From: Conchocele bisecta
Lineage: Eukaryota > Mollusca > Bivalvia > Lucinida > Thyasiridae
Direction of reading: 5' to 3'
Assembly (NCBI GenBank): GCA_029237695.1
Contig: CM055266.1
Span: 110,563,370-110,627,369 of the forward strand
Length of the DNA stretch: 64,000 bases
Under the pieces are notes generated by a model. That model was not told the DNA's origin. It made no database searches and was given only the letters and a program-made list of their open reading frames with translations. The position numbers were made by a program, and so were the translations under genes. Below, one piece after another: positions 54 to 63,687 of this stretch; the first letter of the stretch is position 1; each line of letters opens with the position of its first letter.

Positions 54-116
54 TACAGTGGAACCTCTCCCAACCGGACACCCGCAGGGTGTCCGGTTTG
101 GAGATGTTCCACTGTA
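54..116. mobile_element. pogo-like TA-flanked palindromic MITE
   Basis: A short near-perfect inverted repeat. The ends read TACAGTGGAACCTCTC and its complement GTTCCACTGTA, and the centre is GACACCC-gca-GGGTGTC. TA at both outer edges fits a Tc1/mariner/pogo target duplication. The same ends recur at 4261, 40.65 kb, 42152, 46255 and 53557. The class is inferred from the TIR style and TA flanks; no transposase is present. Confidence 0.7.
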
Positions 117-14612: not shown

Positions 14613-17600
14613 TCACATGTATAAAACGGATTTTCGTTTGTATAATGATTTGAGAAGGTATTTCGCAGTTCTGCGTGGATATTGCGTTAATAATACAACT
14701 AATTGTTCGTCATTGCTGCAAGAGTGGAAGTGAGCGCTGTCATTCACTATGGAGTAGAGATCGTTCCGATACGTGGAGTAACAATTACACTGTGTTAGGA
14801 AAATGTACCTCATTTTCGATTTGCCCACTATTACATATTTTGCACAGTCTTGCTTCGGGTGGCTCACCAACGTATCGACCAGTTTCAATTCTCAACGGCA
14901 ATATGCCACATCTAAACTGAGATAGCACTGAGCGTTCATTGCGGTTCAGATTTAACTTTACGTAAGGCTCCGTGCTATACTCGCGTTTAAAGGTGACGTA
15001 TGTTCTGAGTTTTGGAACATTCTTAATTTGTGCTGGCCACGCATTTGAATGTAATTCAAACAGTTTAATGCGAACTTGTTTTATGTCACATTTGGATTTG
15101 TTGTCAAACTGCAAGTCCATTCCTACTGCAGATAGAATTGTTTTCATTTCAGATGACCAGTTGTTTCTACACTTATCATAATCCCATAGAAACACTCTTT
15201 TACAGATACGATCATCGTCCATGTCGATTAGTCTGTTCCAGTATCTGACCATGTTGCACCAGCGTCTTTCTCGTGATGGCAGCCAACCCATATCTCCATT
15301 AATGGCCAATTTCGGTGCGAAACGGTGTACACCGAGAAAATATCGTATAGCCCGGTTCTGGATAGCGTCTATAGCAGCGTAGTCTCTGAATCCCCATACT
15401 GACGAGTTATAATCGAGAACTGTGTTCACACATGTTGAGAACAGCTTGTCGTAAGTTTTAAATCCGCATTCCTTGAGAGTGTGTATTTTCGATATCACCG
15501 CCCCCAGTGCTCTGCCGCCGCCTTTAGCAAGATTGTCCACATTAGCGCTAAAGTTGCTTTTCTCATGAAATATTACTCCGAGGTATTTATATTGTGTCAC
15601 TGTGTCCAGGTAATTATTGCCTATTTTAAATTGGTATTCACTGCGAGGCCGCCTACCAGAACGGAAATGAACCACCTTTGATGTCCGTGTTGATCAACAC
15701 CCTCCACTGTTTGCACCACCTTTGATGTGTCCGTGTTGATCAACACCCTCCACTGTTTGCACCACTGATGTATGGTGTCCAGAATACGTTGCATGTCTAA
15801 TTCATTTTTGGCGAGAACAACAATGTCATCGGCGTATAATAGGATCGAGACGTCCGTATCACCAGCGTTTATTCCGAGCCCCAATTGGCGAATTTCTTGT
15901 GCTAAGTCGTCAACAAATACGGAAAATAATGTCGGGGAGCAGTTATCTCCCTGTTTGACACCGGATTTACATATAAACCACTCAGTTAATTTGTTGTTAA
16001 CTCGAACACTGGCGGATGTCTCCGCGTAGATACTTTTAACCGAGTTATACAGCTTGCCATCTATACCATTATGAAGTAACTTATATAGTAACATGTCTCT
16101 GTCCACAAAGTCGAACGCTTTTCGTAGATCTATAAAGGTAGCGAATACATTGGTGTTGTTTCTCAAGATACTATTTAACGTAAAGACGTGATCTTCACAC
16201 GAGCGCTTGGCCCTAAAGCCATTTTGTTCATCGGATAGTTTATTATTTTCTTCCAGGTAGGAAGTTAATCTGTTATTTATAAACGAGCTGTACAATTTGG
16301 AAATACATGCTTGTAAACTGATGCCTCTATAATTCATAGGTAACCGTTTATCTGATGTGGGATCTTTCAGTATAGGGCAGATAAGAGATTTTCTCCAGAT
16401 CGATGGAATAATACTGGTGTCAAAGATGAGCTGGAATAGCGATTGTAGAACAGGTGTTATAGATGCAAACTTCAGGACGTCATATGGAATATTGTCAATG
16501 CCAGCGGATTTCCCGGACTTTGCGCGCATTAAAATTCGGTGTATCTCGTTAACTGTAATGTCACTATTCAGTGATTGGTTATCTTCATACAATGGGTCGA
16601 GCATCCTATCTTCGAGTAAGAGTTTATGTGATAACACATCCGATTGAAAGTCACTGTCGAAATCGCTATCTGTGCCCCCGTTATATAGATTCTCAAAGTC
16701 AGTTCTCCATTTTGTGAGAATGAAGTTCTCGTCACATTCGACTGTACCGGACTCATTGTACACTTCCATAGGAATTTGTGAACTTTTTCGCGGCCCTAAA
16801 TGTTTTATTTTGTCCCAGAATTCTCGCGGGTTTTCTGTGCTATCCATTTCAATATCGTCGCAGAGTGATCGTTTATAGACTCGTTCGTGCTGCCGTAGTT
16901 TTTTGTCGAAATATCTCTGAGCCGCAAGAAAATCTGACCGTAATCGCGTTTTAGCTGAATGTGAACCATTACACTTAAGAAATGTACGTTCTTTGCACTG
17001 CATATCGTTCCACAACTCGGATAGCTCGTCATTCCAATACGACTTGTGACACTTAAATCGTTTCTTTGTCGACTTACTGACATTTACTGTTGGGATTTTA
17101 TTGTTCATTTCCTCAGTAATGACGTTACAAAGTTGGGTGTATACATCGTCTACCTGCTGCTGAGTTTCCCTGCTATGCTCAATAGTGTCAATCACATTAA
17201 TTAACGCCAACCGCGTGAGATCAGAGCACATAAAGTCTGCTGGAATAGCCTTAAACTTGAACCGTGTTTGTTGCCTAGTGGCACCCCTTACTACTGGCGC
17301 ATCACGCTCTACAGTCACTGGATGTAGCGTATGGAATTCGGTTACCAGAATTGAGTGATCTGGGATTTTACTCCTCTCTCCAAGCAGATGGTGCAGATGT
17401 AACTGTTCAATAATGGATCTGGCGGTGATAACTCTGAATGATGTGCACTGTTGGATAACATCGTGCGGGACACAGATATAATCAACTATCGATTTGCCCC
17501 TTGGCGAAACAAACGTGAAATTGTCATTTTCGGTGTTGAGTCGGCCGTTCAAAACACATAGTTTGGCATCATTCTATAAACTCCAGGAAAGAATGACCAT

Positions 17601-18126
17601 GCTGGTTCACTGTATTGTCAATAGAGACCCGAGCGGGGATGTCATCAAAGTCGGAAACGTCCGTAAGTGAACCGATTCTAGCGTTGAAGTCTCCGCATAT
17701 GAACAGCGCGTCGCAATCGTAGTTTATATATAGTTCCGTTAGTAAATGGGAGTAAAATCCCTGCGAATCACGACCCCACACAGAGTTTTCTGGCGGTAGA
17801 TAACACGAAAATACGATGAAATTATAGTCTGTATATTTGGATGTAAATCGCACACCAATAATACCGTCATATGATTTGTCCACGGTTTCACATGTATATT
17901 CATCAATGATCCATTGTTTTATTAATAGTCCAACACCACCCGATGCCTTTGGTGCGTCCCTGTGAATTATAGTTCTGTTAAAACCTTTCCATACATATCC
18001 TTCTAGTTCTATATGGTTTCCAGTCTTGAGGTGGGTCTCATTAATGCTGAGTATATCAGCATCTAGTCCGTTGATAATGGCACATCTCAGTTTTGCGTTA
18101 GCAATAGTCCATCCACAGATATTCAA
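14613..18126 (-). pseudogene. LINE ORF2: endonuclease-reverse transcriptase, frameshifted
   Basis: The endonuclease (18126-17569) starts MNICGW and shows SINETHL, GGVGLL and CGDFNARIG. A one-base insertion near 17570 shifts the frame. The next segment (17552-15621) supplies SIVDYICVP and PDHS of the endonuclease end, then reverse transcriptase motifs: AGIDNIPYDVLK, MNYRGISL, DEQNGFR, FIDLRKAFD (motif A), GVKQGDNCSP (motif B) and LLYADD (motif C). A 44-46 bp tandem duplication at about 15672-15763 shifts the frame again. The C-terminal part (15675-14785) ends with CKIC..GQIENEVHF, and after another frameshift near 14800 the C..Y...R continues to a stop at 14613. Stop-free, well-conserved motifs suggest recent decay. 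Confidence 0.88.
15672..15763 (-). repeat. 44/46-bp tandem duplication inside LINE ORF2
   Basis: CTTTGATG(TG)TCCGTGTTGATCAACACC..CACTGTTTGCACCA occurs twice in a row. The copies differ by 2 bp (TGTG versus TG), so the duplication shifts the reading frame just after the reverse transcriptase thumb region. Confidence 0.85.
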
Positions 18127-18158
18127 GTGACATAACTTTACATTGGACCGGGATACCC

Positions 18159-19155
18159 CTAATCAGCTTGCCGATGGTTTGTTTCCGTGTCACGATTCGT
18201 CGCCCCGTTGGTCGCCCCGTTGGTCGCCCGCCGTTGTTGCGCCCCGTTTGTCGCCCCGCCGTTGTTCGCCCCGTTGTTCGCCCCGTTTGTTGCGCCGCCT
18301 TCCCGTCTCAGGATTCTACCGTTACCCGAAATTCTGTACGAGTTGCCCTGCGGTAGCTCATTAAGTAGTGTTCGGGCATTTAGTTCAAGTAATCGCTCCA
18401 CGTGTGATTTGGCACTCTGAATATACACCCGCTTGAAATCTGCACTGTCCTTCAGTTTATACTTACTTCGTAGCACCACGATTTTTTGTTCAACAGTCTC
18501 GAAACTTATTTTCACAAGGGCCGGTTTGTCATGGAAACGCCGTCTCAGACGGGCTGCGGCAACGGCCTTTACTTGAGTTGAGACATCTTGGCCTATAGCC
18601 TCTATAATGTTACGGGCTATGTCCAGCAAATTCTCGTCGTCTGTATATGGGACATTTTTGAACGATAACGGTCACGTCGTTATTGTTTAACGGGTCCGGA
18701 TTACGGCCCATTGATCCGGGTCGATTACCATGTGACGTCATACCGACACCAATAGAGTCATCATCGCCATGGGCGTTCGGTGTGTTCTGAATGGAATGCT
18801 CAACCTGTCCGAAGCGTGTAGTAAGGGACTGAACAGAGTTCACCAGTTCATCAATACGTTTAGATTCCTTACCAAGGTCAAGGTCAATTTCTGCCTTCAG
18901 CGAGTGCATTTTATCGTCAATAGTGGAGAGCACGTCATTTCGCAGTTTATCAATTTTAGATTCAAACATTCGTTTGATACTGACCTGACCATCCTTTATT
19001 TCATTCACGACTGTTACAAGGCTGGCCAGTTGGTTTTTCAGTTCGTCCCCATGATTGTCAGATGACGCCATCTTGGATTGTTTATTTTCCGGGCGCGGGG
19101 TATCACCCTCAGAGTTTCTTTGGCGTTTACCACCACCAGTGGATTTCCCGGACAT
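18159..19155 (-). pseudogene. LINE ORF1 protein, one frameshift
   Basis: The first frame (19155-18610) begins MSGKSTGGGKRQRNSEG, is basic at the start, then forms a heptad-like coiled coil (SIKRMFESKIDKLRNDVLS and on). The frame changes near 18640, within VTVI.K.VPYTDDENLLDIA. The second frame (18629-18159) has an RRM/CTD-like stretch (IIEAIG, ARLRRRF..KPALVKISF, YKLK) and ends in a low-complexity tail of GATNGA/GANNGA repeats. This layout matches ORF1 proteins of LINEs, which coat the RNA and act as chaperones. ORF2 starts 33 bp further on. Confidence 0.8.
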
Positions 19156-19323: not shown

Positions 19324-20880
19324 TCACAACTTGCTCATATTTCCGTTAGAACTAGTACGTTCGAGGAACTGAAAGAAGTCCTCTGTTCCGTTGGCAGGTA
19401 CCATGTCGTCGATAACAGACTGTCGTGTCTTACCATTAGCTTCGGTACCTTTCACGCAGAACAAATTTTTAAAAAATTTCTTCGACTCTTGTCTGATTGT
19501 TTTATTCAATAGTCCGTAGATATACGGATTCCCAGCATAGGATGCGTATGACAACCATAAGGTCACGTGATTAACACTCTCCGTGTGATCGTGTGATCCC
19601 GCTACCGTGCTGGCAAATTGCACAAGGAAATAAGGCCCCCAGAAGATAATAAAAAGTGTGAATGTCGTCAGAAGTGTCCCTATCGCTTTTATGTTTATGT
19701 TGTGTCCATTGGTGCTGATGAAGTTTGCCATCCTGTGTGGGTGGCTCGTCACGAACTGGGCGTGTCCAATCTGGGTGACAGACACGCCGCCCTGTCGGCC
19801 GGATTTCATATTCATGTGGCTGTTCACTCCTGATTGGATGATGACAGTTTGCTCCGCTGTTACCTTGTTTGGCACCGAACTGCCAGTGCTTACCTCGAAC
19901 ATAACGCACTGTCGGATGCTGGAGTCAATGGAAATACCTCGAATGTGCGACACTCCTGTAATTGACTGCTTCGAGATTATACCATGTGATGTAGGTTGTC
20001 CCATGTTTGTGTGTTGCATCATTCGGTCGTGCGACGGCGCCACAATTCCCGTAACTGAACAACTCTGTCCGGGCGCTATCTCTTCACATACGACGGTCGG
20101 TGCCGGCAGACAGTCGGGCAGCAGGTCGTCGAGGGCGGCCACGGGCTGCACCTGTACCGCCGCCTGGCGGGCCACCTTGTAGATGCCGCAGTTCAGACAG
20201 GCCAGCATCAGGACAGGCACGGCGAAAAACAGCAGGCACACGGCGACGACGAAGACCCTGCTGTCGGCATCATCCAGGACGTACGTACAGTGACATGACG
20301 TTGTGTTGTATCTATACCTGCTCCAGCCCACAACCGGCAGTGATGAAACCAGGATTGGGATCGCCCACGTGACAATCAAGCATATGCCCGTCTTTCCCAG
20401 CGTCATGTTGCCCGCGTGGTGCATTGGCATCCTGATACTGTAGTAGCGCTCGACGCTGACGCAGCATATGGCGATAATGCTGGTCAGCGACAGGAACGTG
20501 TTGAGAAACCCATTTGCGACACACATCTGGTCGTTCCACAGCCAGTGCTGGCCTATGAAGACCGCGATAGACTTCGGCATGATGGTTACGGAGGCCAGTA
20601 GGTCTAAAATACAGAGGTTTGCGATGAACAACGAGCTGCTCTCCTCGCGGAGTTTGCTGACGCTGAAAATGGCGACGATGAGGAGGAGGTTCGTGCCGAA
20701 GGCGGCGGCGTTGATGGCCGTCATGCAGGCGATCGTGGTGACATAGGCGGCACTGTACAGCCTCACATCCTCCCGGCACGTCAGGTTCATCAAGATAATC
20801 GCACTGTTGTTGGTCATGTCGTACGTACATCTATCTACCTGGGAATACAAGATATTGTGCTGACTGTTATCACATGACAT
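19324..20880 (-). CDS. class A orphan-like G-protein coupled receptor, intronless
   Basis: A complete 518-residue seven-helix receptor in one exon. TM1 spans about 44-74 with N64 (GTN), and TM2 has D93 (ILDLL). C120 at TM3 pairs with an extracellular-loop-2 cysteine (C196 or C198). TM3 ends in E144-R145-Y146 rather than DRY. W172 marks TM4, P222 TM5, and TM6 carries FWGP (413-416). TM7 has NPYIY (451-455), followed by a basic helix 8 and C475, a possible palmitoylation site. N-glycosylation sequons are N24, N32 and N192. The third intracellular loop is long (about 232-397) and low in structure. Overall it looks most like the orphan GPR61/62/26/161-type receptors, but aminergic or peptide relatives cannot be excluded; no ligand can be inferred. 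The first Met gives a sensible extracellular N-terminus. The local sequence is GC-richer than its surroundings. Confidence 0.88.
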   Translation of the reverse strand: MSCDNSQHNILYSQVDRCTYDMTNNSAIILMNLTCREDVRLYSAAYVTTIACMTAINAAAFGTNLLLIVAIFSVSKLREESSSLFIANLCILDLLASVTIMPKSIAVFIGQHWLWNDQMCVANGFLNTFLSLTSIIAICCVSVERYYSIRMPMHHAGNMTLGKTGICLIVTWAIPILVSSLPVVGWSRYRYNTTSCHCTYVLDDADSRVFVVAVCLLFFAVPVLMLACLNCGIYKVARQAAVQVQPVAALDDLLPDCLPAPTVVCEEIAPGQSCSVTGIVAPSHDRMMQHTNMGQPTSHGIISKQSITGVSHIRGISIDSSIRQCVMFEVSTGSSVPNKVTAEQTVIIQSGVNSHMNMKSGRQGGVSVTQIGHAQFVTSHPHRMANFISTNGHNINIKAIGTLLTTFTLFIIFWGPYFLVQFASTVAGSHDHTESVNHVTLWLSYASYAGNPYIYGLLNKTIRQESKKFFKNLFCVKGTEANGKTRQSVIDDMVPANGTEDFFQFLERTSSNGNMSKL

Positions 20881-20989
20881 GTATTACATTCGAACCACAC
20901 AAGACACGCAGACAACCGTCATGTGGTAAATTCCGATGTTACTGTCCTTTATATTAAATCATGCAAAGACAGTTGATTTAGCATTTCAC

Positions 20990-23510: not shown

Positions 23511-26500
23511 AATTTAATTGAAGGGTGTCAGCGGAAGAAGGGTCATTTTAATTGAAGGGTGTCAGTGGAAGAAGGGTATTGTTAAATGAAGGGTGTCAGC
23601 GGAAGAAGGATCATAGGGTAATGTAAAATGTAAGGGTGTCAGCGGAAGAAGGGTCATGTCAATTGAAGGGTGTCAGCGGAAGAAGGGTCATGATAATTGA
23701 AGGTGGTCAGCGGAAGAAGAATCATGCTAATTGGATCATGCAATTGTAAGAAGGGAGTTATGTTTGAAGGGTGTCAGGGAGAAGGGATGTAATTGAAGGG
23801 TGTCAGTGAAGTCTGTTAATTGAAGGGTGTCAGTGTAAGAAGGGTCATGCTAATTGATTGGTGTCAGCGGAAGAAGGGTTATGTAAATTGAAGGGTGTCA
23901 GTGGAAGAAGGGTCATGTTAATTGAAGGGTGTTCAGCGAAGTGGGCATGTTAATTGAAGGGTGTCAGCGGAAGAAGGGTCATGTTAATTGAAGGGTGTCA
24001 GTGGAAGAAGGGTCATGTTAATTGAAGGGTGTCAGCGGAAGAAGGGTCATGTTAATTGAAGGTGGTCAGCGGAAGAAGGATCATGCTAATTGAAGGGTGT
24101 CAGTGGAAGAAGGGTTATGCTAATTGAATGGTGTCAGCGGAAGAAGGGTCATGTTAATTGAAGGGTGTCGGCGGAAGAAGGGTCATGTTTATTAAAGGGT
24201 GTCAGCGGAAGAAGGGTCATGTTAATTGAAGGCCGTCAGTGTAAGAAGGGTCATGCTAATTGAAGGTTGTCAGCGGAAGAAGTGCATGTTAATTGAAGGA
24301 TGCCAGCGGAATAAGGGTCATGTTAATTGAAGGGTATCAGCAGAAGAAGGGTCATGTTAATTGAAGGCTGTCAGTGTAAGAAGGGTCATGCTAATTGAAG
24401 GGTATCAGCGGAAGAAGGGTCATGTTAATTGAAGGATGCCAGCGGAATAATAGTCATGCTAATTGAAGGATGCCAGAGGAAGAAGGGTCATGTTAATTGA
24501 AGGGTGTCAGTGGAAGAAGGGTCATGTTAGTTGATGGGTGTCAGCGGAATAAGGGTCATGTTAATTGAAGGGTGTCAGTGGAGGAAGGGTCATGTTACTT
24601 TAAGGGTGTCAGCGGGAGAAGCGCCATGTTAATTGAAGGATGTAAGTGGAAGAAGGGTCATGTTAATTGAAGGGTGTCAGCGGAATAAGGGTCGTGTTAA
24701 TTGAAGGATGCCAGTGGAAGAAGGGTCATGTCAATTGAAGGGTGTCAGCGGAAGAAGGGTCATGTTAATTGAAGGGTGTCAGCGGAAGAAGGATCATGCT
24801 AATTGAAGGGTGTCAGTTGAAGAAGGGTTATGCTAATTGAATGGTGTCAGCGGAAGAATGGTCATGTTAATTGAAGGGTGTCAGCGGAAGAAGGGTCATG
24901 TTAACTAAAGGGTGTCAGCGGAAGAAGGGTCATGTTAATTGAAGGCTGTCAGTGTAAGAAGGGTCATGCCTATTGAAGGGTGTCAGCGGAAGAAGGGCCA
25001 TGTTAATTGAAGGATGCCAGCGGAATAAGGGTCATGCAAATCGAAGGATGCCAGAGGAAGAAGGGTCATGTTAATTGAAGGGTGTCAGTGGAAGAAGGGT
25101 CATGTTAGTTGATGGGTGTCAGCGGAATAAGGGTCATGTTAATTGAAGGGTGTCAATGGAAGAAGGGTCATGTTACTTTAAGGGTGTCAGCGGAGGAAGC
25201 GCCATTTTTAATTGAAGGATGTAAGTGGAAGAAGGGTCATGTAAATTGAAGGATGCCAGCGGAATAAGGGTCATGTTAATTGAAGGGTGTCAGTGGAAGC
25301 AGGTTCATGTAAATTGAAGGATGCCAGCGGAATAAGGGTCATGTTAATTGAAGGGTGTCAGTGGAAGAAGGGTCATGTTATTTGAAGGGTGTCAGTGGTA
25401 GAAGGGTCATGTTAATTGAAGGCTGTTAGTGATAGAAGGGTCATGCCTATTGAAGGGTGTCAGCGGAAGAAGGGCCATGTTAATTGAAGGATGCCAGCGG
25501 AATAAGGGTCATGCAAATTGAAGGATGCCAGAGGAAGAAGGGTCATGTTAATTGAAGGGTGTCAGTGGAAGAAGGGTCATGTTAGTTGATGGGTGTCAGC
25601 GGAATAAGGGTCATGTTAATTGAAGGTGTCATGAAGAAGGGTCATGTAGTACTAAGGGTGTCAGCGGAGGGTAAGCGCCATGTAAATTGAGAGGAAGTAA
25701 GCTCAATGGAAGAAGCAGTTAATTGAAGGGTGTCAGTGGAAGCAGGGTCATGTAAATTGAAGGATGCCAGCGGAATAAGGGTCATGTTAATTGAAGGATG
25801 CCAGCGGAATAAGGGTCATGTTAATTGAAGGATGCCAGCGGAATAAGGGTCAGTTAATGAAGGGTGGGTCAGCGAATAAGGGTCATGTTAATTTGAAGGT
25901 GTCAATGGAAGAAAAGGGTCATGTAAACTTAAGGGTGTCAGCGGAGGAAGCGCCATGTTAATTGAAGGATGTAAGTGGAAGAAGCGCCATGTTAATTGAA
26001 GGGTGTCAGTGGAAGAAGCGCCATGTTAATTGAAGGGTGTCAGTGGAAGAAGGGTCATGTTAATTGAAGGATGCCAGAGGAAGAAGCGCCATGTTAATTG
26101 AAGGGTGTCAGTGGAAGAAGCGCCATGTTAATTGAAGGGTGTCAGTGGAAGAAGGGTCATGTTAGTTGATGGGTGTCAGCGGAATAAGGGTCATGTTAAT
26201 TGAAGGGTGTCAATGGAAGAAGGGTCATGTTACTTTAAGGGTGTCAGCGGAGGAAGCGCCATGTTAATTGAAGGATGTAAGTGGAAGAAGGGTCATGTAA
26301 ATTGAAGGATGCCAGCGGAATAAGGGTCATGTTAATTGAAGGATGCCCGCGGAATAAGGGTCATGTTAACTGAAGGGTGTCAGTGGAAGAAGGGTCATGT
26401 TAATTGATGGGTGTCAGCGGAATAAGAGTCATGCTAATTGAATGGTGTCAGCTGAAGAAGGGTCATGTTAATTGAAGGGTGTCAGCGGAAGAAGGGTCAT

Positions 26501-26653
26501 GTTAATGAAAGAGTGTCAGCGGAAGAAGGGTCATGTTAATTGAAGGGTGCCAGCGGAAGAAGGGTCTTGTTAATTGAAGGGGTCAGTGGGATAAGGAGGC
26601 TAAGTCCGTTATGGCCTTAGCCTCCTTTTTCCACTGACCCCTTCAATTAACAG
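23511..26653 (+). repeat. minisatellite of 34-bp units, about 90 copies
   Basis: The consensus is GAAGGGTGTCAGCGG plus AAGAAGGGTCATGTTAATT. A second variant reads GAAGGATGCCAGCGGAATAAG. Diverged marker units containing AAGCGCCAT recur near 24600, 25180, 25650, 25930 and 26240, which points to block duplication of many units at a time. The right end is an inverted unit: AATTGAAGGGGTCAGTGG...AAGGAGGCTAAG faces its complement, giving a hairpin tip at 26571-26653. The outer edges are thus TTAATTGAAGGG and CCCTTCAATTAA. There are no spacers, so this is not a CRISPR. It looks non-coding. Confidence 0.9.
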
Positions 26654-35221: not shown

Positions 35222-35516
35222 GTTTGTTTGTTGTTGATGTTTAACGGCTTATCAGCAGCTAAGATCATTTAAGGCTGGGCCAACGGGTCCGATCCCGTAT
35301 TCAACCTGCTGCATTGGAGGGAAAATCTCAAAATCAGAACAGAATATTTACATCGAGAACAAATATATTCAGCACTGAAATTAGAACAACCTGACCTGGT
35401 GGCAGGTCCATACCACACCAAATCACTTGGCCCCTTCCCCTAAAAGTAATAGGATTAGGAATACTCATATTACTCATATAAGGGGTATAACCACATCGCA
35501 TGCTCCCACCTGCCTG
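35222..35516 (+). mobile_element. dispersed GTTTAAC element, truncated
   Basis: GATGTTTAACGGCTTATCAG, CAGCTAAGATCATTTAAGGC, ATATTCAGCACTGAAATTAG AACAACCTGACCTGGTG and CCTAAAAGTAATAGGATTAG match the copies at 42905 and 58155. I take it as a mollusc-type non-autonomous retroelement or MITE; class unsure. Confidence 0.55.
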
Positions 35517-42904: not shown

Positions 42905-43349
42905 TTGTTTGTTTTTTTATTTGGGTTTAACTGCCTATCAACAGCTAAGGTCATTTAAGGCCGGGTCAATGGGTTTAGTACTAAATCCCATATATTACCT
43001 GTACAAGTACATGTACATGTTCAAGTACATGTACAAATGGGGGGAAAATCACAAAATCAGAACTGAATATTTACAATAACAAAACTATATATTCAGCCCT
43101 GAAATCAGAATAATCTTGATCTGATGCCATGTCCTCGCCACACCAGAATCACTTGGCCCCTCCCAAAAGCAGTAGGACCATTACTAATCTTACTACTTTT
43201 ATAATGGGCAATAACCCAATTCAACTCCCAGGTAACTAAAGAGCCAAAGATAAAAACGTACCTGAGGGCCAAACCAGGCAAATCGGGATTCCTATAAGGA
43301 GGAACCCATACCGTTAATTTACGCCGTCTCATTCGCCCGACCACCACCC
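42905..43349 (+). mobile_element. dispersed GTTTAAC element, copy 2
   Basis: GGGTTTAACTGCCTATCAAC, CTAAGGTCATTTAAGGCCGG, TATATTCAGCCCTGAAATCA, CCTCGCCACACCAGAATCAC and TAGGACCATTACTAATCTTA. It continues to GGCAAATCGGGATTCC, matching GGCCAAATCCGGTATAG in the 58155 copy. Confidence 0.6.
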
Positions 43350-46102: not shown

Positions 46103-46254
46103 ATATAGCAATAGTTTAGTCATAGACAGGCACGACGTTGAACTATGTATTCTAACCGCTCTCATACAATTTGACCATACCGAACCAAATACGCATAGTT
46201 CGTATATTTGAAGCCAGTATCTATTTGATAAATAGAGCACCTTGTACAGTGGAA

Positions 46255-46451
46255 CCTCTCTAAACCGGACAGCCTGGGAGGTCCCCAGGGTGTCCGGCTT
46301 AGAGGAGTTCCACTGTTACATGCACTCGATCACCAACCTTTTGTCATTTTCAGTCATGAACAGACAGGACAATGAAATAAATTACATTGAAACCTATCTA
46401 AATTAGTACAATGGGGTCACAGGGTGTCCGGTTTAGAGAGGTTCCACTGTA
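46255..46451. mobile_element. nested pogo-like element
   Basis: TACAGTGGAACCTCTCTAAA at the left and TTAGAGAGGTTCCACTGTA at the right, with an inner terminus AGGAGTTCCACTGTTA at about 46315. Confidence 0.7.
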
Positions 46452-52124: not shown

Positions 52125-52351
52125 TCATGATATCTCTCCACGTTGGTCTGTATCCGCGTATTCAGTAGCTTTCTCTTTGTCCTTCTTTTGCTTCTCCGAG
52201 TCTTCCGCATGTTCTGCCTCAATTGCTATATTCTTAGCTTCAGTTTCACGAAGTTTCCGTTCAGCCTCATTGCTTTCTACACGCACAGCATGTAGAAGCT
52301 GGTCTACCTTATTCAGTCGGTCACCACCAATGCTTGCTGATATTTCAGCAC
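52125..52351 (-). CDS. terminal coding exon of a coiled-coil protein gene
   Basis: The first base follows an acceptor, TTTCATTGTAG, on the minus strand. The exon opens in phase (GT completing a Gly codon) and encodes 74 residues, AEISASIGGDRLNKVDQL through AERKLRETEAKN to KATEYADTDQRGEIS, then TGA. Charged heptads rich in Glu, Lys and Ala predict a long helix or coiled coil. The upstream exon at 63618-63687 ends in phase 1, so the joint codon is GGT. I do not recognise the protein family. It is conserved-looking in codon terms and unrelated to the surrounding repeats. The CAAGGTG MITE lies 100 bp downstream. Confidence 0.72.
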
Positions 52352-52435
52352 CTACAATGAAATCCTTATTACATAATATTTAACAGTGAATGTGGATAAA
52401 ACGGCTGTTACATGTACATCAATGTTTTTATATAC

Positions 52436-52684
52436 GAGACACGCCATGTGATTTTGAACCTTCGGATGTCTGCTTAATTTCATTAAAAACGTTTACAAAA
52501 TTTACAATATTTTTCAAAATAATGTCAAAAGTTGACCAAACTTTCAGAGTACATGCAATTCCGCATGTACTCTGAAAAGTTTGTCAACTTTTGACGCCAT
52601 TTATGGAAAATATTGTTAATTTTGTAAACGTATTTCATGACATTACGCAGATGTCCGAAGGTACAAAAGCACATGGCGCGACTC
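52436..52684. mobile_element. GAGACACG-ended MITE, family D, copy 3
   Basis: GAGACACGCCATGTGATTTT faces ACATGGCGCGACTC. Central hairpin TCAGAGTACATGCAATTCCG..TGTACTCTGA. Confidence 0.75.
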
Positions 52685-52716
52685 ATATGACTCTAGCGTT
52701 ACGGTCACCACAGCAG

Positions 52717-53108
52717 CAAGGTGTATGATCACGTGGTAATAACAACAACAACAAGAACCGATTCAAAGTACGTATTATTTTATAGTGTCCTTATTACGTA
52801 ACGGATTTTGATGAAATTCGTCTTGTTAAGCTGCATTTGGTGGTCTCTGTATTTTCGGCCAAACTTCTGTCGTTTTTTGCGAAAAATCGATTTCCGTGTC
52901 TCCGACATGGAAATCGATTCTTCGCAAAAACGACATAAGTCTGTACCAAACTCCCTAGACCACTAAATGCAGCTCATGTAGACACGTTTGCTTTGCTGCG
53001 CCATATTTCATCAAAATCCGTTGCATATTAAGGAAAATATCAAATAATACTTACTTTGGAGTGGGCGGCGTTGTTGTTGTTGTTGTAACCACGAGATCAT
53101 ACACCGTG
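52717..53108. mobile_element. CAAGGTG hairpin MITE, family C, copy 5
   Basis: CAAGGTGTATGATCACGTGG at the left; the right end reads GATCATACACCGTG. AGCAG lies directly on both sides, a 5-bp duplication. Confidence 0.85.
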
Positions 53109-53634
53109 AGCAGTGTCGTAGCAAAACTGAGGTATATGCCGCAATGTTTTTCCACTTCAGTAACATATAAACATGCCTATAAAAATATTCTGTGACCAAT
53201 CTATATAGTTTGTGTCCCATTGTGTGGCCGTTCGCTAGGTGTTTCTATTCAAAGTAACAATCAGGTCAAGATAGGTATAATATTATGATAAATTTTAATT
53301 TCTTCAGAGCATGTTGGTGTTCACAAGTACGAAGCGGTTTTTTTCTTATTAATTTTGTCCCCGTTACATGCCAAATAGTGAGTATAATAACATCCTATTG
53401 AACAAATTAGTTTGCACACCTATTATAATGTCGGAAAACATTTTAGGATCATAATATCTGTTGTAAGGTACAATACTCTTTAGTTCACTTCATGGACTAA
53501 TCCCATTTTAGTTGACCACAGTCCATTTGCCGAGTGGTGTCATGACCAAGAGGATATACAGTGGAACCTCTCTAAACCGGACACACTGATATGCCCACAG
53601 GGCGTACAGTTGAGAGAGGTTACACGCAATGTAA

Positions 53635-53849
53635 TTAACCCTGTCAACCCTAAATAACAGAAACGGATTTTGATATGCTAATTTTGCAACCAATCCAATT
53701 GTCACAAAATGATTTTTCAGATTAGTCCATTTATGAAATGGGGGTGTTTTTGTCCTAAAAAATATGAAACTTACTTGCAAAAAGTGCAGATCTGGATCTA
53801 CACTGTTTTCCAATAACACTATACAGGTATGTGGTGTTTAAAGGGTTAA
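53635..53849. mobile_element. TTAA-flanked hairpin element, copy 4
   Basis: TTAACCCTGTCAACCC at the left, TTTAAAGGGTTAA at the right. The inner hairpin is reduced to GTGCAGATCTGGATCTACAC. Confidence 0.7.
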
Positions 53850-53994
53850 GCAAACCATGAATATATTTTTCTCATGTTCAATCATGAACAGACACGACAA
53901 TGTAATACATCACAGTCAAATCCATCTAAATTAAACACATATTGTTACATGGCTGCCGTTGCAAACATATAGCGCGTGCTGTTTGCATATGGCT

Positions 53995-54120
53995 TTAGGC
54001 AATGCTCATTCCGGGGCCGCGCGTAGACCAAGTGCCTTCATGACATCACTACGCGAAAGTGCCTTCATGACGTCACTACTTCATGACGTTCATGACGCGG
54101 CCCCGGAATATGAATACCGA
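53995..54120. repeat. GGGGCCGCG hairpin
   Basis: ATTCCGGGGCCGCG and CGCGGCCCCGGAAT enclose repeats of GTGCCTTCATGAC.TCACTAC. Related motif (CTCCGCGTAGACCAAG) near 56370. Confidence 0.6.
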
Positions 54121-54333
54121 AAATTATCTACGTGAATGGGACGATTTTATAAAAGTACTGAAAATACTGAATATAATGCTCAAATTACATCAGTTTTTTG
54201 TTGGAAATGTAACATTGTCTGCGGCCTTGGGTTCAAACAATTCCCTCGGGCCACAGCAAACGTTTGCACACGGCTGGACATGATCAAACCTTATAATGGT
54301 CCCACAGGGGTCCGGTTTAGATAGGGTCTACTG

Positions 54334-54443
54334 TACATGTACAGTGCATACCTTACCTGTCATATATATATATACAAATGTATACATTGTATATAGGTTC
54401 TACTGTACATGTACAGTGCATACCTTGCCTGTCTGTCACGAAT
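54334..54443 (-). repeat. two isolated units of the donor-bearing repeat
   Basis: On the minus strand: ACAGGCAAGGTATGCACTGT and, about 65 bp on, ATGACAGGTAAGGTATGCAC. They match the main array unit but lie 2.4 kb away in the same intron. One flank runs into a pogo-like terminus. Confidence 0.75.
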
Positions 54444-54445
54444 CG

Positions 54446-56845
54446 TAGCCGACTATTTCCTGTATCATCTATTAATTGTAACACGGGTCACATAGTCTAG
54501 AGCAGTAATCGAATATTCTAGTACAAGACGGTCGAATAGGTATTGGTGTGTGAAATATCGCCCGTGGAGTACACCGCTGGAGACAATAGCGTTTTATCCG
54601 AAACCGCGCACGGACCACCAGTATTGGATTTTGCACTGGTCGTATCTGGGTGATCTACACTGTATATGCAGACTTAGATGCTAGCCTAATTACCTAGTAA
54701 GTCATACCTATTTATGACTGAAGTATTTCAGACTAATTCACCAGATATCTCATGAGCTAGACTGACTGTCAGATCATTAGTCCACTTACGTAAAATTGTA
54801 AGCCAAATGTGGGCACGGCATAAGTTTTACATTGACAAGCAGACTACATGGGATAGTCATGCACTAGGGTGGGGTATATATTCGTTGTAGCACCATATAT
54901 TATCAGTCGGACATTCAATTTCATTCTTGTGACATTGGAGCGCACGTTTTTCACTGGGAATTGGCGAGTACATATGTTGTTGTTACTTTCTAATGCTGCC
55001 ATTTAAGTCTGAATCGTGCCAAGACCGGCAATTCTACGCAGTGTTATCGTATCCTCGCTAATACTGCACTATTTAATTTACCTGAGTTATTTGGCCCCGT
55101 TTCGACCAAACGCTTGGTCAATAAAAGCCGTATGGCATGTATCCGCTGATGTAGATTATCTCCCTTAATCAAATATTATTGATTCATTCATTCGTCGTGC
55201 TTACGTGTAAATAATAACGATCACAGGACTGGCATGTGGGAGCATTCCGTGAGTATTGTAATGGCATATTATTCTCATGTGTTTTTGTTGCATGTCACTC
55301 TGACTAATTGCATTAGCAATTTATTGTATTTGTAAAACGAAGGGCAAACTCGATTGAAATGTTCACTAACATTAGCCATGCATTTTATGTTACGATTCAA
55401 TCGAATATCTGTCTGGGCCCTGTACAATACATGAGAATATTGCCAATGTTAACATGTCACAATTGTAACGTGAATTTTCTGGACGACTTTCATTACTCTA
55501 TGGGGAAACACATGTTAACTCCTAACCCAGTCGTCTGTACCATCATTTTATTAAGTCGTATTACGTTCGCAGTGTGTTGTAAATATTGTAAATGCTATTG
55601 CGACCAAGATGGGCCAGATCAGACAGTTCTGCTCTAAGTGCACTGATTTATACATCAGTAAGCTGCAATAAGGACATGATGTGAAGTATAATTTGTTTCT
55701 ATCACTGATGCTTTGGGTCAGCCTGTGGAATCCTACAGTCTGATTAGAGTATACAGTGTTTATGATTAGTAATGTAATACTGTGAGTCTGTACAGGAGAA
55801 TACTTGGCACAGTTGCTCTTTATTAAGTTAGCGCAGTTGGCCACGGGCAGTCTAATCAAGGTAAGGCCTGTCGCAATCAAATGTTTGTTTACTAATGGCA
55901 AATAACTGTGAATGACGTCTGTATTCACATGTACGGCTGTGAAGAGGTATATCGTTGGGTACACTAGATATTGTGGCTGTTCATTAATGTGTTATATCAC
56001 ATTTTCCGACTTATGAATTCCATCAGCCCCCTTCTTCCAATTAGTGAAAATATCTTTGTGTACATTGCATTTTATCATGTTTCATCATTGTAATATATGA
56101 TGATGTTTAGTATTGCCATGCAATCAGGATATTGATTTCATGTGCACTACTGTGACTATTATTGAGACTATAATCATGTTACATTCTGGTAACAACACCG
56201 TTGGTGTTTTGTAGTCCCAGCCAGTACACCAGCCAGGCAGCCAGCCAGTCAGCAACGAGCGACGGCACGTCCCTACTTTGTGTCTGCGTAATTCAGTACG
56301 CAACACAGAGTTATTTACTTATTCTGGAGTCCACGACACGACACCGTGTGTTAGCGGGGACTCTGCTCCGCGTAGACCAAGGGCGTAATAGAGTGGGGCA
56401 TATTCCGGTGACGTCATTCCGTCAAAGGACGTGAAGAATCGATAGGGACATTCACCGATGCGTTATGGACCCCATCCACCCAAGTAGGCTCAGTATCTCC
56501 TAAGAACCAGTAACTTTACGACGTTATTATAACGTCACTCCCATCATGGCGGAAGCCGGAGTTGTTTAGATGATCTCTAACATTGGATATTTATCCAGAT
56601 TATGATGACGTTTACTTTTGACTTTACCTACCTGTTCCAGAATCGAGGATGTGCCTTGGTTGTGCAAGGGCCTGTGGCGGTAACTGCTAGGGGACGTTGT
56701 CCGTACTGACATATTCATCTATTGTTTGTGTTTATCATTTATGTAAATATATCATACTTGTAAAAATATACCTTGTTGTCTCTGTCCACAACGTGCTTGG
56801 TGTTCCGTCCCTTCAGTAGACTAGCTCGGTGTCACCCTGGTGTGA
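54446..56845. other. low-repeat intronic sequence
   Basis: No MITE families and no convincing exon. A GC-richer patch at 56200-56560 contains GACGTCATTCC and CATCATGGCGGAAGCCGG, which could mark a promoter, but its ORF is only a few codons. Confidence 0.4.
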
Positions 56846-59800
56846 CACTGTCATATATATATATATACAAATGTATATATAGGTTCTACTGTACATGTAC
56901 AGTGCATACCTTACCTGTCATACATAACCTGTCATATATATATATATGTATATACTTCTAAATGTACATGTACAGAGTACCTTACCTGTCATATATATAT
57001 ATACAAAATGTATATATAGGTTCTACTGTACATGTACAGAGCATACCTTTCCTGTCATATATATATATACAAATGTATATTTTTTACTGTACTGTACAGA
57101 GCATACCTTACTGTCATATATATATATACAGTATATTTAGGTTCTACTGTACATGTCAGTGTACCTTACCTGTCATATATATATATACAAATGTATATAT
57201 AGGTTCTATGTACAGTGCTACTTACCTGCATATATTTATATATTATCCTATATATAGGTTCTATGTACTGTGCATACCTTACCGTCATATATATATATAC
57301 AAATGTATATATGGTTCTATGACATGTACCGTACATACCGCCTACAGTGGTTTCATATATATTATATATATTATATATAGGTCTATGGTTCATGTACAGT
57401 GCATACCTTACCTGTCTATATATATTTATCAAATGTATATATAGGTTCTATGTACTAGTACATACCTTACCTGTCTATATATATATACATTATATAGGTT
57501 ACTGTATTGTACAAAGTATATACTACTGTCCATATATATATATATACAAATGTATATGGTTCTATGTACAGTGCTACCTTACCTGTCATATATATATATA
57601 CATGTATATATGGTTCTACTGATACCTTACCTGTCATATATATATATACAAATGTATATATAGGTTATGTACATGTACAGTGCATACCTTACCTGTCATG
57701 TCATGTACAGGCATACCTTACCTGTATATATATATATATACAAATGTATATAGTTCATGTCAGTGCATACCTACCTGTCATATATATATTAAAAGTATAT
57801 AGTTCTAGTCATGCACCTACATACTTACTGTCATATATATATATACAAATGTATATATAGGTTCATGTACAGTGCATACCTTACCTGTCATATATATATA
57901 TACAAATGTATATATAGGTTCTATGTACAGTGCATACCTTACCTGTCATATATATATATATACAAATGTATATATAGGTTCTATGTACAGTGCATATACT
58001 ACTGTATATATATATATCAAACGCAGTGTATATATATGGTAGGTTCTATGTACAGTGCATACCTTACCTCATGTCATATATATATTATACAAATGTATAT
58101 ATAGTCTATGTACAGTGCATACCTTACCTGTACAGTATAGAGGTATGTACAGTGAGGTGAGTGAGTGAATTGGGTTTAACGTCCGCTTTTCTGACATAGA
58201 GGTACAAGCCTCAGGGAGTCTACACGCAGACGGGTCAACGGGGTCGAGTCCCGTATCCACCTGTCCGAGGGTGGTAAATCCCAACTTCAGAACTCAATAT
58301 TTACAATCAAAATATATATTCAGTCCTGAAATTAGAACAACCTGATCTGGTGCCAGGGCCTCGCCACACCAGCATCATTTATCCAATCCCCTAAAAGTAA
58401 TAGGATTAGCGCTAATCTTACTTTTATATATGGGGCATAGCCTGACTCAACTCTCACATACAAGAAAGCCAAAAATGTACATGAAGGCCAAATCCGGTAT
58501 AGTGGGTTCCGGAAAGTATGAACCCAATCGTAAAGCCAGTTTAGTCGCCTTTTACGACAAGCAATGGCTACTGCAGCACTATTCTCAGGATCAGTTGATC
58601 CCGCCCCGGTGCCTGCACGGGGCAACTGTACATGTACAGAGCATACCTTACCTGTCATATATATATATATACAAATGTATATATAGGTTCTATGTACAGT
58701 GAATACCTTACCTGTCATATATATATATACAAATGTATATATAGGTTCTACTGTACATGTACAGAGCATACCTTACCTGTCATATATACATATATATACC
58801 TGTCATATATATATATATACAAATGTATATATAGTTCTACTGTACATGTACAGTGCATACCTACTGTCATATATATATATCTGATATACAAATTGTATAT
58901 ATGGTTATACTGTACATGTACAGAGCATACCTTACCTGTCATATATATATATATACAAATGTATATATAGGTTTACTATGTACAGTGCATACCTTACCTG
59001 TCATATATATATATATACAAATGTATATATAGGTTCTATGTACAGTGCATACCTTACCTGTCATATATATATATAAAACATGTATATAGGTTCTATGTAC
59101 GAGTGCATACCTAAACCTGTCATATATATATATATTACAAATGTATTGATAGTGTTCTACTGTACATGTACAGAGCATACCTTACCTGTCATATATATAT
59201 AGATACAACATGTATAGGTTCTATAAAAAAAACTGTAATGTACAGTGCATCTCCCTTACCTGTCATATATATATATACAAATGTATATATAGGATTCACT
59301 GTACATAAGTACAGTGCATAACCTTACGCTGTCATATATAATATATTCAAATGTATATATAAGTTTCTACTGTACATGTACATTGCATACCTTACCTGTC
59401 CATATATATATATATAACAAATGTATATATAGTTCTACCTGTACAAATGTACAGAGCATCACCTTACCTGTCATATATATATATAATACATGTATATATA
59501 GGTTCTACTGTAATGTACAGTGCAAATACCTTCTGTCTATATATATACACATGTATATAAAAGTTCGAAACTGGTACATGAACAGTGCATACCTTACCTG
59601 TTCATAATATATATACTACACAAGTAATATATAGGTTTCTACTGTACCTGTAAAGTCATACCTTACCTGTCCATATATATATATAAACCACATTGTATAT
59701 AAAGGTTCCTACTGTACATGTACAGTGCAAACCTTACCTTTCATATATATATATATACAAATGTATATATAGTTCTCTATCCTACTGTACATGTACAGTG

Positions 59801-62800
59801 CCCCACCTTACTTCATATATATATTATACAAATGTTTATATAGGTTTATATGTACAGTGCATAGCTTTACCTGTCATAATAAATATACAAATGAAAATTT
59901 ATAGCTTCTCACTGAACATGTACAGAGCATACCTTCTCTGTCATATAAAATATATACACAATGTATATATAGGTTCTACTGTACATGTACAGTGCATACC
60001 TTACCTGTCATCCATAACCTTCCATATATATATATAATATACATATATACCTGGTTCATATATATATATACAAATGTATATATAGGTTCTATGTACAGTG
60101 CATTACCTACTGTCATATATATATACATGTATATATTCTTACTGTACCTTTGTCAGAGGCATACCTACCTTGTCAGATATAGGTTATATACAAATGTATA
60201 TATTACTGTACATGTACAGTGCACCTTACTGTCATATATATTTATATAATGTATATAGGTTCTACTGTACATGTACAGAGCATACTTACTTGAATATATA
60301 TATATACTGTATATTAGTTCTACAGCTGTACAGCATTACCTTACCCTGTCTATGATATATATTATACAAATGTATAATCCCAGTTCATACTGTACATGTA
60401 CAGAGCACTACCCTGTCATATAAATTTATATATACATGTAATATAGGTTCTATGTACAGTGCATACAAATCTGTTCTATATTTATATACATGTATCTAGT
60501 TACTGTACCATGTACAGTGCATACCTTACCTGTCATATATATATACAGTATATATAGTCTACTGTACATGTACAGTGCATACCCATACCTTTGTCAATAT
60601 GCTTACCTTGTCATATATATATACAAATGTATATATTTCAAGTATACTTACCTGTATATGTACATTGTACAGTGCATACCTTACCTGTATATTATATATA
60701 TACAAATGTAGTATATGGTCTATAGTCTACATGTACATGTTAGTGGCATACAGTACCTGTCATATATATATATTATACAAATGTATATATCTATGTTAAC
60801 TGATAGTCATTTGTACAAAGTAGGCATACCTTACTGTCATATATATATTTATACAAATGTATATATAGGTTCTACTGTACATGTACCAGTGCATACCTTT
60901 ACTGTATGTATATATTATATACATGTATATATAGGTTCTACTGTAATGTACAGTGACATCATTCTGTATATGCTTTACTCTGTCATATATTCCTATATAT
61001 ACAAATGTATATAGGTTCTACTGTAAATGTACTGCATACCTCGTCATATATATACTGTATATATATTTCTATGTAGTGCATACCTTACCTGTCTATATAT
61101 ATATACAAATGTTTATATAGGTCTATGTACAGTGCTACCTTACCTGTCATTATATATATATACAAATGTATATATAGGTTCTACATGTACAGAGCTACCT
61201 ACTGTCATATTTTTTATATATATCAAATGTATAATGTTCTACTGTACTGTACATGCATCCTTACTGCATATATATATATACAAATGTATATATGGTTACT
61301 GTACATGTACAGTTGCATACCTACCTGTCATATATATACACAGTATATATAGGTTCAACTGTACGTGCCATACCACCTGCATATTTATATATATACTGTA
61401 AATATATAGGTTCTACTGTACATGTACAGTGCATACCTTACCTGTCAATATATATTATACAAATGTATATATAGGTTCACTGACATGTCAGTGCTTACCT
61501 TACCCTGCATATATACACATGTATATAGGTTCTACTGACATGTACAGAGCATACCTTACCGTCATATATATATATACAAAAAGTATATAGGTTACTACAT
61601 GTACAGTGCTACCTTACCTGTCATATATATATATATCAAATGTATATATTTCTATGTACAGTACAGTGCATCCTTACCGTATTTTTAATATATATACAAA
61701 TGTATAATAGGTTCTATGTATGAGTGCATACCTTACCGTCATATATATATACACATGTATATAGGTTTTACTGTACATGTACAGAGCATTTCTTACCTGT
61801 ATATTTATATATATACACATGTATATAGGTTCTACTGTCTGTACAGTGCATACCTTACCTGTCATTATAATATACAAATGTATATATAGGTTCATGTATG
61901 TACAGTGATACCTTACCTGTCATATATATATATATACAAAATGTATATATAGGTTCTATGTACATACAGTGCTACCTTCCTGTCATATTATATATAAAAA
62001 TGTATATAGGTTCTACTGTAGTAGTGCATACCTTACCTGTCATATATATATATATACGTATATAGGTTCTATGTACATGTACATGCATACCTTACCGTCA
62101 TATATATATACAAATGTATATAGGTTCTACTGTACTTAACAGCAACCTTCCTGCATATATATATATCAAATGTATATATATTACTGTACATTACAGTGCT
62201 ACCTTACCTTTCATATATATATAATATACATGATAAATACTACTGTATGTACGTGATACCTTAGTCATATATATATATACAAATGTATATAGGTTTCTAC
62301 TGTACATGTACGTTGCCATACCTTTGTCATATATATATATATACAAATGTATATAGGTTCTACTGTACAGTATGCACATTACCTGTCATATATATTTTAT
62401 ACAAATGTATATATATATTACTGTACTGACGTCATACCTTACCTCATATATATATACAAAATGTATATATAGGTTCTATTGTACATGTACAGAGGCCTAC
62501 TACTGTCTTATATATATACAAAGTATATATGGTTCTCTGTAAAGTACGTGCATACCTTACCTGTCATATATATATATATACAAATGTATATTTTGGTTCA
62601 CTGTACGTACAGTGCCATACCTTACCTGTCATCATATATATATATACAAATGTATATATAGGTTCTACTGTACATGTACAGTGCATACCTTACCTGTCAT
62701 ATATATATATATACAAATGTATATATAGGTTCTACTGTACATGTACAGTGCATACCTTACCTGTCATATATATATATATACAAATGTATATATAGGTTTA

Positions 62801-63617
62801 CTATGTACAGTAGTGCATACCTTCCTGTCATATATATACAAATGTATATGGTTCTATGCATGTACAGCATACCTTACTGTCATATATATATATACAAATT
62901 ATATAGGTTCTACTGTACAGTACAGTGATACCTTATGTCTATATATATATATAAATGTATATAGGTTTCTATGTACATGTACAGTGCATACCTTACCTGT
63001 ATATATATATATACAAATGTATATAGGTTCTACTGTACGACAGAGCATCCTTACCTGTCATATATATATATACAAATGTATATAGGTTCTATGTCAGTGA
63101 TACCTTACCTGTCATATATTATATACAAATGTATATATGGTTCTATGTACATGTACAGAGCATACCTTCTCATATATTTTTTATACAAAGTATATTCTAC
63201 TGTACAGTACAGAGCATAACCTTACCTGTCATATATATATAACAAATGTATATAGGTTCTATCAGTGCACCTTACCTGTCATATATATATACAAATGTAT
63301 ATAGGTTTCTCTGTACATGTACAGTGCATACCTTACCTGCATATATATATACAAATGTATTTATAGGTTCTCTGTAATTGTAGAGCATACCTACCTGTCA
63401 TATAAATATACAAAAGTATATATGGTTCTACTGTCATGTACGAGCATCCTTACCTGTATATATATATACAAATATATTAGGTTCTATGTCATGATACCTT
63501 ACCGTATATATATATACACAAATGTATATAGGTTCTCTGTACATGTAAGTGCTACTACCTGTTATATATATATAATGTATATATGGTTCTACTGTACATG
63601 TACAGTGCATACATTAC
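56846..63617 (-). repeat. tandem array of about 100 units carrying a splice-donor motif
   Basis: The unit is about 63-65 bp. On the minus strand it reads ATATATATGACAG|GTAAGGTATGC, ACTGTACATGTACAGTAGAACC, TATATATACATTTG. Each unit has two palindromic parts: CTGTACATGTACAG and TATATA..TATATA. Many units carry one-base deletions, and the best-preserved lie near 56870, 57850-58000, 58640-58760 and 62630-62790. The array begins inside the last 10 coding bases of the exon at 63618. The open frames in it (YIYIYKCIYRFY) come from the AT repeat and are not genes. Confidence 0.9.
58155..58622 (+). mobile_element. dispersed GTTTAAC element inserted in the array
   Basis: The fullest of three copies. 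Begins GAGTGAGTGAATTGGGTTTAAC, passes TCGAGTCCCGTATCCACC, ATATTCAGTCCTGAAATTAG AACAACCTGATCTGG and AAAAGTAATAGGATTAGCGC, and ends with GTCGCCTTTTACGACAAGCA and GCCCCGGTGCCTGCACGGGG. The last block is a conserved end I recall from many molluscan repeats. No ORF with recognisable function. Confidence 0.7.
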
Positions 63618-63687
63618 CTGTCATATATGCCATCTCCGCTGCAGAATGTACCAAGGCTTTGGCAGTCATCAGCATAATTTCCAATTC
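63618..63687 (-). CDS. penultimate exon of the coiled-coil protein gene
   Basis: On the minus strand an acceptor TTTTTCTGACAG precedes 70 coding bases, ELEIMLMTAKALVHSAAE MAYMT plus one base, and the donor G|GTAATGTATGC follows. Phase 1 at the donor fits the next exon exactly. Reading through the donor would add GKVCTVHVQ and stop. The last bases (CATATATGACAG) belong to the repeat unit that fills the intron. The helix-forming, alanine-rich sequence continues the coiled-coil character. Earlier exons lie beyond the window. Confidence 0.72.

Follow-up and report, generated by a model that had tools for sequence, protein, structure and literature searches.

A tandem array of about one hundred splice donors at an exon of Smac/DIABLO in the bivalve Conchocele bisecta, probably grown by amplification of the exon-intron boundary

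How does an intron come to begin with about one hundred copies of a splice donor, and which of them would be used? This question is raised by a stretch of 64,000 nucleotides of the bivalve Conchocele bisecta (assembly GCA_029237695.1, contig CM055266.1, positions 110,563,370 to 110,627,369; hereafter the window), in which an exon of the Smac/DIABLO gene ends against a long array of donor-bearing repeats. We propose that the array is, by its structure, a "mirage" like those of amphioxus, i.e. boundary-spanning tandem units with AG/GT signals and a local origin. This explanation, taken as a whole (the anatomy, the origin in place and the use of the first donor in most transcripts), appears likely to us.

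The exon/intron border lies at 63618/63617 on the minus strand and reads CATATATGACAG/GTAATGTATGC (a slash marks splice boundaries throughout), with the exon end and the flanking letters that the original prediction had given. By wrap-around alignment to a periodic consensus, we counted 103.2 units of a 65-bp consensus (GACAGGTAAGGTATGCACTGTACATGTACAGTAGAACCTATATATACATTTGTATATATATATAT), with the core ..ATATATGACAG/GTAAGG and the consensus donor CAG/GTAAGG. All are in the same orientation, as had been proposed for about 100 units: the motif CAGGTAAG occurs 48 times in the sense direction and never in antisense (mean 0.135 and maximum 2 in 200 dinucleotide shuffles). The array is contiguous from the donor, the first 40 nt of the intron matching it better than 200 out of 200 shuffles. 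It had been described as a tract of 6.8 kb with its limit at 56846. The tandem units are real, and they are interrupted by a dispersed repeat, which we take to be SINE-like (short interspersed element; related copies at 43039-43308 and 35277-35492); nor does the array stop at 56846, where a second insert, which resembles a solo long terminal repeat (LTR), splits it and leaves two further units on the other side (Table 1). The final unit reads ..TACATG-TA-CAGTAGACCCTAT and continues into CTAAACCGGAC, the terminal repeat of a family of TA-bordered elements that we assume to be Tc1/mariner-like. The terminal inverted repeat (TIR) of this family has 15 matches in the window at ≤3 mismatches, with 0 expected by chance. 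Tiny palindromic elements of about 59-69 bp (window 56-114, 46247-46315 and 53559-53626) contain little beyond two TIRs of the same family.

Table 1. Features of the DIABLO locus (window positions) and exons with donor arrays elsewhere in the genome
Feature	Position	Strand	Details
Smac/DIABLO exon	63618..63687	-	70 nt; peptide ELEIMLMTAKALVHSAAEMAYMT(G); acceptor TTTTTCTGACAG/; donor 63617; final 11 nt match the array unit in register
In-frame stop (TAG) after read-through of first donor	63589..63591	-	
Array-bearing intron	52352..63617	-	11,266 bp
Array segment 1	58629..63628	-	about 82 units, from exon edge to dispersed-repeat insert
Dispersed-repeat insert within array	58161..58628	-	tail ATTCACTCACTCAC; ends approximate
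Array segment 2	56848..58160	-	
Insert splitting array	54434..56847	-	2414 bp; TGTCAC...GTGACA; 5-bp target duplication GACAG
Array segment 3	~54321..54433	-	two units; the last continues into transposon end
Terminal inverted repeat CAGTAGACCCTATCTAAACCGGAC	54310..54333	-	TA before it; end of TA-flanked element
Last coding exon of DIABLO	52125..52351	-	junction ACA G/GT GCT, phase 1; stop 52127-52125; AATAAA shortly 3' of stop
KDM1A/LSD1 exon (L029, L030)	C3:13001146 onward		PDB chains E 2.5e-27; unit about 24 bp
RTCB exon (L039)	C2:84151400-84153600		PDB E 7.6e-29; 60-bp period; 41 nt matching exon end
Oxysterol-binding protein exon			Pfam Oxysterol_BP E 4.2e-13
Spondin-N exon			Pfam Spond_N E 1.5e-13
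Related genes L040, L041	C2:140874000-140876200, 141083700-141085900		49-bp donor array; 35 exonic nt each; one with a 601-aa upstream frame

By homology, this exon and the one beginning at 52351 encode the C-terminal part of Smac/DIABLO. The peptide joined from both matches Pfam Smac_DIABLO (E 1e-6, 28.7 bits, cut-off 25), and DIABLO/Smac PDB chains align to it, with AAE-x-AY-x-TGA in common across the junction (E only 0.011). The 52351 exon is taken as the last coding one because it ends in a stop codon shortly followed by AATAAA. With a human DIABLO query, tblastn detected the preceding exon past the end of the window (locus L009); it ends at C2:110630716 in phase 0, with the donor GACAG/GTAATG. 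The resulting three-exon peptide, whose first residues may still be intronic, reaches 49.5 bits against Pfam PF09057 (Smac_DIABLO; cut-off 25; E 4.7e-13) and E 2.3e-7 against DIABLO PDB chains. No 5' exon with the inhibitor-of-apoptosis-binding motif was recognised by tblastn within 20 kb upstream, beyond the window, and a search of the genome with the PF09057 family was uninformative, as it missed the DIABLO gene itself and detected 0 of 14 controls. The two successive DIABLO exons (donors at window 63617 and C2:110630715) both terminate in GACAG/GTAATG, by coincidence or shared history.

We then considered where the unit came from. It reads as a chimera: the exon end contributes 11 nt, the intron its first 21 nt and a transposon end TA plus some 13 nt, the rest being an AT spacer. 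The overlap between exon end and unit is exact and in register over 11 nt (ATATATGACAG); among the 1491 other CAG sites of the window, a single one does as well. These 11 nt code for Y-x-T-G, found at the same place in human DIABLO (AYMTGAE and AYQTGAD); the exon sequence is therefore older than the array. In the whole genome (1.89 Gb), the unit core has at least 13 exact matches and at least 32 matches at ≤3 mismatches, and all those listed (13/13 and 32/32, respectively) lie in the DIABLO intron. The insertion of a preformed satellite was rejected, given this restriction of the core among the matches listed and the composition of the unit from exon and transposon ends. An exact scan of viral_contigs and genome_contigs (neither animal) with a 24-mer of the unit gave 0 matches, as did Rfam at gathering scores and a search for tRNA. 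An origin of the AT spacer from upstream exon sequence was also rejected, the match not being significant. No clear higher-order structure was found among the unit variants (28 lag tests, one at p 0.006).

Growth of the array by tandem amplification of the donor region, as the original prediction had it, is thus well supported as a reading of the sequence: the array begins right at the donor, its unit agrees in register with conserved coding sequence, the last unit passes into the TIR, as the outer limit of a tandem duplication should, and the core occurs only here among the matches listed. Under this scenario, a TA-flanked (Tc1/mariner-like) element would have inserted near the exon end, within the intron. 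A segment comprising 11 exon nt, the first 21 intron nt, the first ~13 nt of the element and an AT-rich spacer would then have been duplicated, perhaps by slippage or template switching at AT-rich microhomology. Repeated duplication would have produced ~105 copies, all except the first within the intron, and the dispersed repeat and the LTR-like element would have entered the array afterwards. Such features are the signature of a tandem duplication that took place at the locus itself, later than the transposon insertion and earlier than the other two inserts.

Compared with the consensus, the array shows 2.6% substitutions, 4.4% insertions and 10.2% deletions, i.e. 5.5 indels (insertions or deletions) per substitution, and insertions in the unit core rise from 0.3-1.7% in the first four ten-unit blocks to 2.4-7.9% in later blocks. 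In comparison, a second long array of the same window (23514-26586, 34-bp unit, ~90 copies) diverges mainly by substitutions, with an indel to substitution ratio of 0.34. For this reason, the small differences between DIABLO units are probably uncorrected errors of the long-read consensus, and the true units would differ far less. One difference that is probably real is the A/T variant at unit position 16 (67 A, 19 T). The contrast between 5.5 and 0.34 also invites the suspicion that the length or even the existence of the array is an assembly artefact, and a mis-assembled mirage is on record for amphioxus (PMC3087553). However, unit 1, the last unit, the two inserts and the variant at position 16 make up a coherent anatomy, and arrays of the same kind at other genes look cleaner by eye; we consider an artefact very unlikely. 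By eye, an AT-rich donor array whose start was not captured (L036, C1:30576995-30580400) has an indel-rich look like that of the DIABLO array.

Most units had been said to match the donor consensus better than the real donor does. The consensus unit does so: the authentic donor, CAG/GTAATG, lacks G at +5 and shows 7/9 complementarity to the U1 5' end (-8.1 kcal/mol), vs. 8/9 (-11.5 kcal/mol) for the consensus unit donor. As assembled, the statement applies to about half of the units (54 AGGTAAG in 103 units), and 52 of the 503 GT sites scored in the array beat the authentic donor by U1 complementarity and 70 by duplex energy, against 4 and 3, respectively, of the 293 GT sites in the rest of the intron. 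Read-through of the first donor would add GNVCTVHVQ rather than the GKVCTVHVQ initially read, and the in-frame stop announced after it is present, so that choosing a downstream donor would indeed truncate the protein. As assembled, the first strong unit is found 164 nt downstream, which would place its junction 135 nt past the read-through stop. Splicing from later units would be rare and, because of the stop, would give a Smac protein without its C-terminal helical part; where the unit junction lies more than ~50 nt past the stop, the transcript would be a target of nonsense-mediated decay, the outcome expected for the nearest strong unit, whereas a nearer unit could give a truncated protein. 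The first donor would serve in most transcripts, since it is favoured by exon definition, the exon having 70 nt, and is needed to make the conserved protein. The array is most likely tolerated rather than selected.

Several observations weigh against the explanation that we favour. Assembly noise blurs the unit counts, and by both measures the units surpass the first donor (8/9 vs. 7/9; -11.5 vs. -8.1 kcal/mol). For the AT spacer, the match to the exon is not significant, 22% of shuffles doing as well. Finally, the placing of the exon's coding end within unit 1, which was part of the original prediction, agrees with the exact match in register, but when register is ignored, the match of the last 40 exon nt to the array is suggestive at best (equalled by 11 of 200 shuffles), a weakness that we attribute to the AT-rich array. 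That these 11 nt belong to the unit is our inference, and they are its least secure piece.

Could the array influence splicing? Decoy competition at its donors is possible. In its full form, this reading holds that the units rival a true donor that is weaker than they are, that splicing is slowed and some DIABLO mRNA is made from unit donors, and that array length tunes the output of pro-apoptotic Smac. It draws on the stronger array sites counted above, on the prediction that, among 52 strong sites, 36 have a higher accessibility than the authentic donor, and on the human ABCA7 gene, where single-unit retention and length-dependent mis-splicing are described (PMC5954066). Yet predicted accessibility is low at all sites (0.0035 for the authentic donor, median 0.014 for the 52 strong units), the closest strong unit is distant, retention of an ABCA7 unit is reported at ~2% and independent of length (PMC5954066), and in amphioxus regular splicing is reported to proceed undisturbed by the mirages (PMC3087553). 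We therefore regard such tuning as unlikely. A stretch of consensus folds slightly better than shuffles (z -2.3). The units might conversely assist the authentic donor, if U1 small nuclear ribonucleoprotein bound to them aided exon definition. The missing G at +5 would give such help a purpose, and intronic U1 binding just past a donor is reported to enhance recognition of PAH exon 11; however, the preceding DIABLO exon has the same GACAG/GTAATG with no array in the short intron stretch examined, and we hold the idea to be improbable.

A third reading takes each AG/GTAAG as acceptor and donor at once, the intron being removed stepwise through dual-specific or recursive sites. AG/GT is present in the consensus unit and tandem dual-specific sites are reported to operate in human UBC (PMC10809524), but the consensus unit has no yTnAy branch point and pyrimidines upstream of the unit AGs average 47%; this is lower than the 65% of the 63687 acceptor but the same as at the true 52351 acceptor. 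Acceptor function of the units looks poor, and we give stepwise removal very little credence. Tandem amplification of the donor region, with splicing mostly from the first donor, remains our preferred explanation.

We also searched the genome for three CAGGTAAG motifs spaced 10-40 or 41-70 nt apart. This pattern returned many arrays with unrelated units. From the first part of the resulting lists, 22 loci besides DIABLO were examined (21 on contigs C1 and C2, 1 on C3; L021/L022 and L040/L041 are related pairs). In 4 of them, the donor array starts at an exon identified by homology (KDM1A, RTCB, an oxysterol-binding protein and spondin-N; Table 1). The identity of KDM1A rests on PDB chains, as its exon peptide has no Pfam match above cut-off (best BLM_N 0.22); its array extends over almost 9 kb, up to the limit of the fetched stretch, with 148 and 97 units in L029 and L030 (slightly different word counts). 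Open frames of 57-601 aa ending at the array were judged coding by eye, with no named family, at L021, L023, L033, L040 and L041 (frames scanned at the first three), and L027 has a weak match below cut-off (ADP_ribosyl_GH, 0.0013) and no PDB match. No exon was evident at L019, L020, L026, L032, L035 and L037, the frames of L026 (76 aa) and L032 (83 aa) having no Pfam match, and the array start was not captured at L022, L024, L028, L031, L034 and L036. For KDM1A, the oxysterol-binding gene and L027, the following exon was not detected by short-motif searches of the fetched stretches.

The array start was captured at 16 loci, and in each of them the 40 nt that follow the supposed exon end resemble the array more closely than any of 200 shuffles, which shows only where the array starts. 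Exon sequence within the unit was supported at L033 (47 nt; 0 of 200 shuffles as good), RTCB (41 nt; 0), L040 and L041 (35 nt each; 0), L027 (23 nt; 0), the oxysterol-binding gene (15 nt; 2) and KDM1A (11 nt; 1), and not supported at L023 (9 nt; 23), spondin-N (5 nt; 188) and L021 (4 nt; 53), where the arrays begin with the intron, like that of ABCA7. Among the donor-array peptides scanned, 3 of 12 were above the Pfam cut-off. In comparison, for 10 arrays of two other 8-mers, none of the 14 frames scanned out of the 20 longest flank frames (both 500-bp flanks) passed it (best E 0.017). It should be noted that CAGGTAAG itself selects real donors; if arrays arise throughout the genome, some of those found with it should therefore lie next to exons.

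An excess of donor-motif arrays was not supported on contigs C1 and C2 for gaps of 10-40 nt: counted by eye, there were 10 loci for CAGGTAAG, 5 for the reversed 8-mer GAATGGAC and ~15 for the swapped 8-mer CAGTGAAG, several of which belong to dispersed families. The pattern with gaps of 41-70 nt gave 829 matches vs. 441 for its reverse. As far as homology can tell, the boundary-array process is recurrent in this genome, at other exons too. Donor arrays are not clearly commoner than control arrays; therefore, the genome appears to make minisatellites freely, exon ends included, and to tolerate them. A bolder proposal would make mirage formation a general, ongoing mutational process in a lineage far from amphioxus, and the length of the DIABLO array a hypermutable, heritable dial on full-length Smac. 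We hold it to be distinctly unlikely.

Elsewhere in the window, a 519-aa open frame (19324-20883, minus strand) contains a rhodopsin-family 7tm_1 domain (E 1.5e-42). Adjoining long open frames at 14785-18671 (minus strand), one with a reverse transcriptase domain (E 1.8e-35), probably belong to a non-LTR retrotransposon.

With near-identical donors competing next to a single true one, such arrays amount to a natural experiment: they bear on the rules by which the spliceosome picks one of several equal 5' splice sites, and on how introns grow or are gained through boundary duplication. The arrays of KDM1A, RTCB, the oxysterol-binding gene, spondin-N and DIABLO, together with human ABCA7, suggest that the mirage class is broader than cephalochordates, and the class becomes testable with RNA data in several genes of one animal.

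Compared with the mirages of amphioxus, whose genome is far smaller, the DIABLO array lies in another gene and in a host genome of 1.89 Gb, and the likeness is one of structure. Amphioxus mirages, described in Adh3 and in the globin genes BflGb6 and BflGb9, and possibly general in cephalochordates, are likewise minisatellite-like duplications that span a boundary and carry many AG/GT units (10-72 bp in Adh3), with regular splicing reported intact (PMC3087553). In BflGb6, however, haplotypes are reported with 3-6 units of 150-160 bp at an acceptor-side boundary (PMC3087553), against ~103 units in DIABLO. The variable number tandem repeat of human ABCA7 intron 18 also starts at the canonical donor GT, that of exon 18, and reaches kilobase lengths (~12-427 units), the cryptic donor of one unit being used; next-exon skipping is described as length-dependent, unlike the ~2% retention of one unit (PMC5954066). 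It differs by its 25-bp unit, by the absence of an exonic part from its description, and in that its next exon can be skipped (PMC5954066), whereas in DIABLO the exon that follows is also the final coding exon. Splice boundaries are similarly overlapped by internal tandem repeats of human exon-intron borders (PMC2812944) and by the dual-specific arrays of UBC and VCX3A (PMC10809524), and a model of intron gain via AGGT-containing duplication is part of this literature. About half of these human repeats are reported inside coding exons, and those at boundaries can make new introns (PMC2812944, PMC10809524); the DIABLO copies, by contrast, lie within an existing intron and their acceptor function looks poor. 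Search listings of the literature gave nothing pointing to such an array in DIABLO. Arrays of this kind are already known from lancelets; the novelty here lies in the gene, in the number of copies and, probably, in their recurrence within one large genome.

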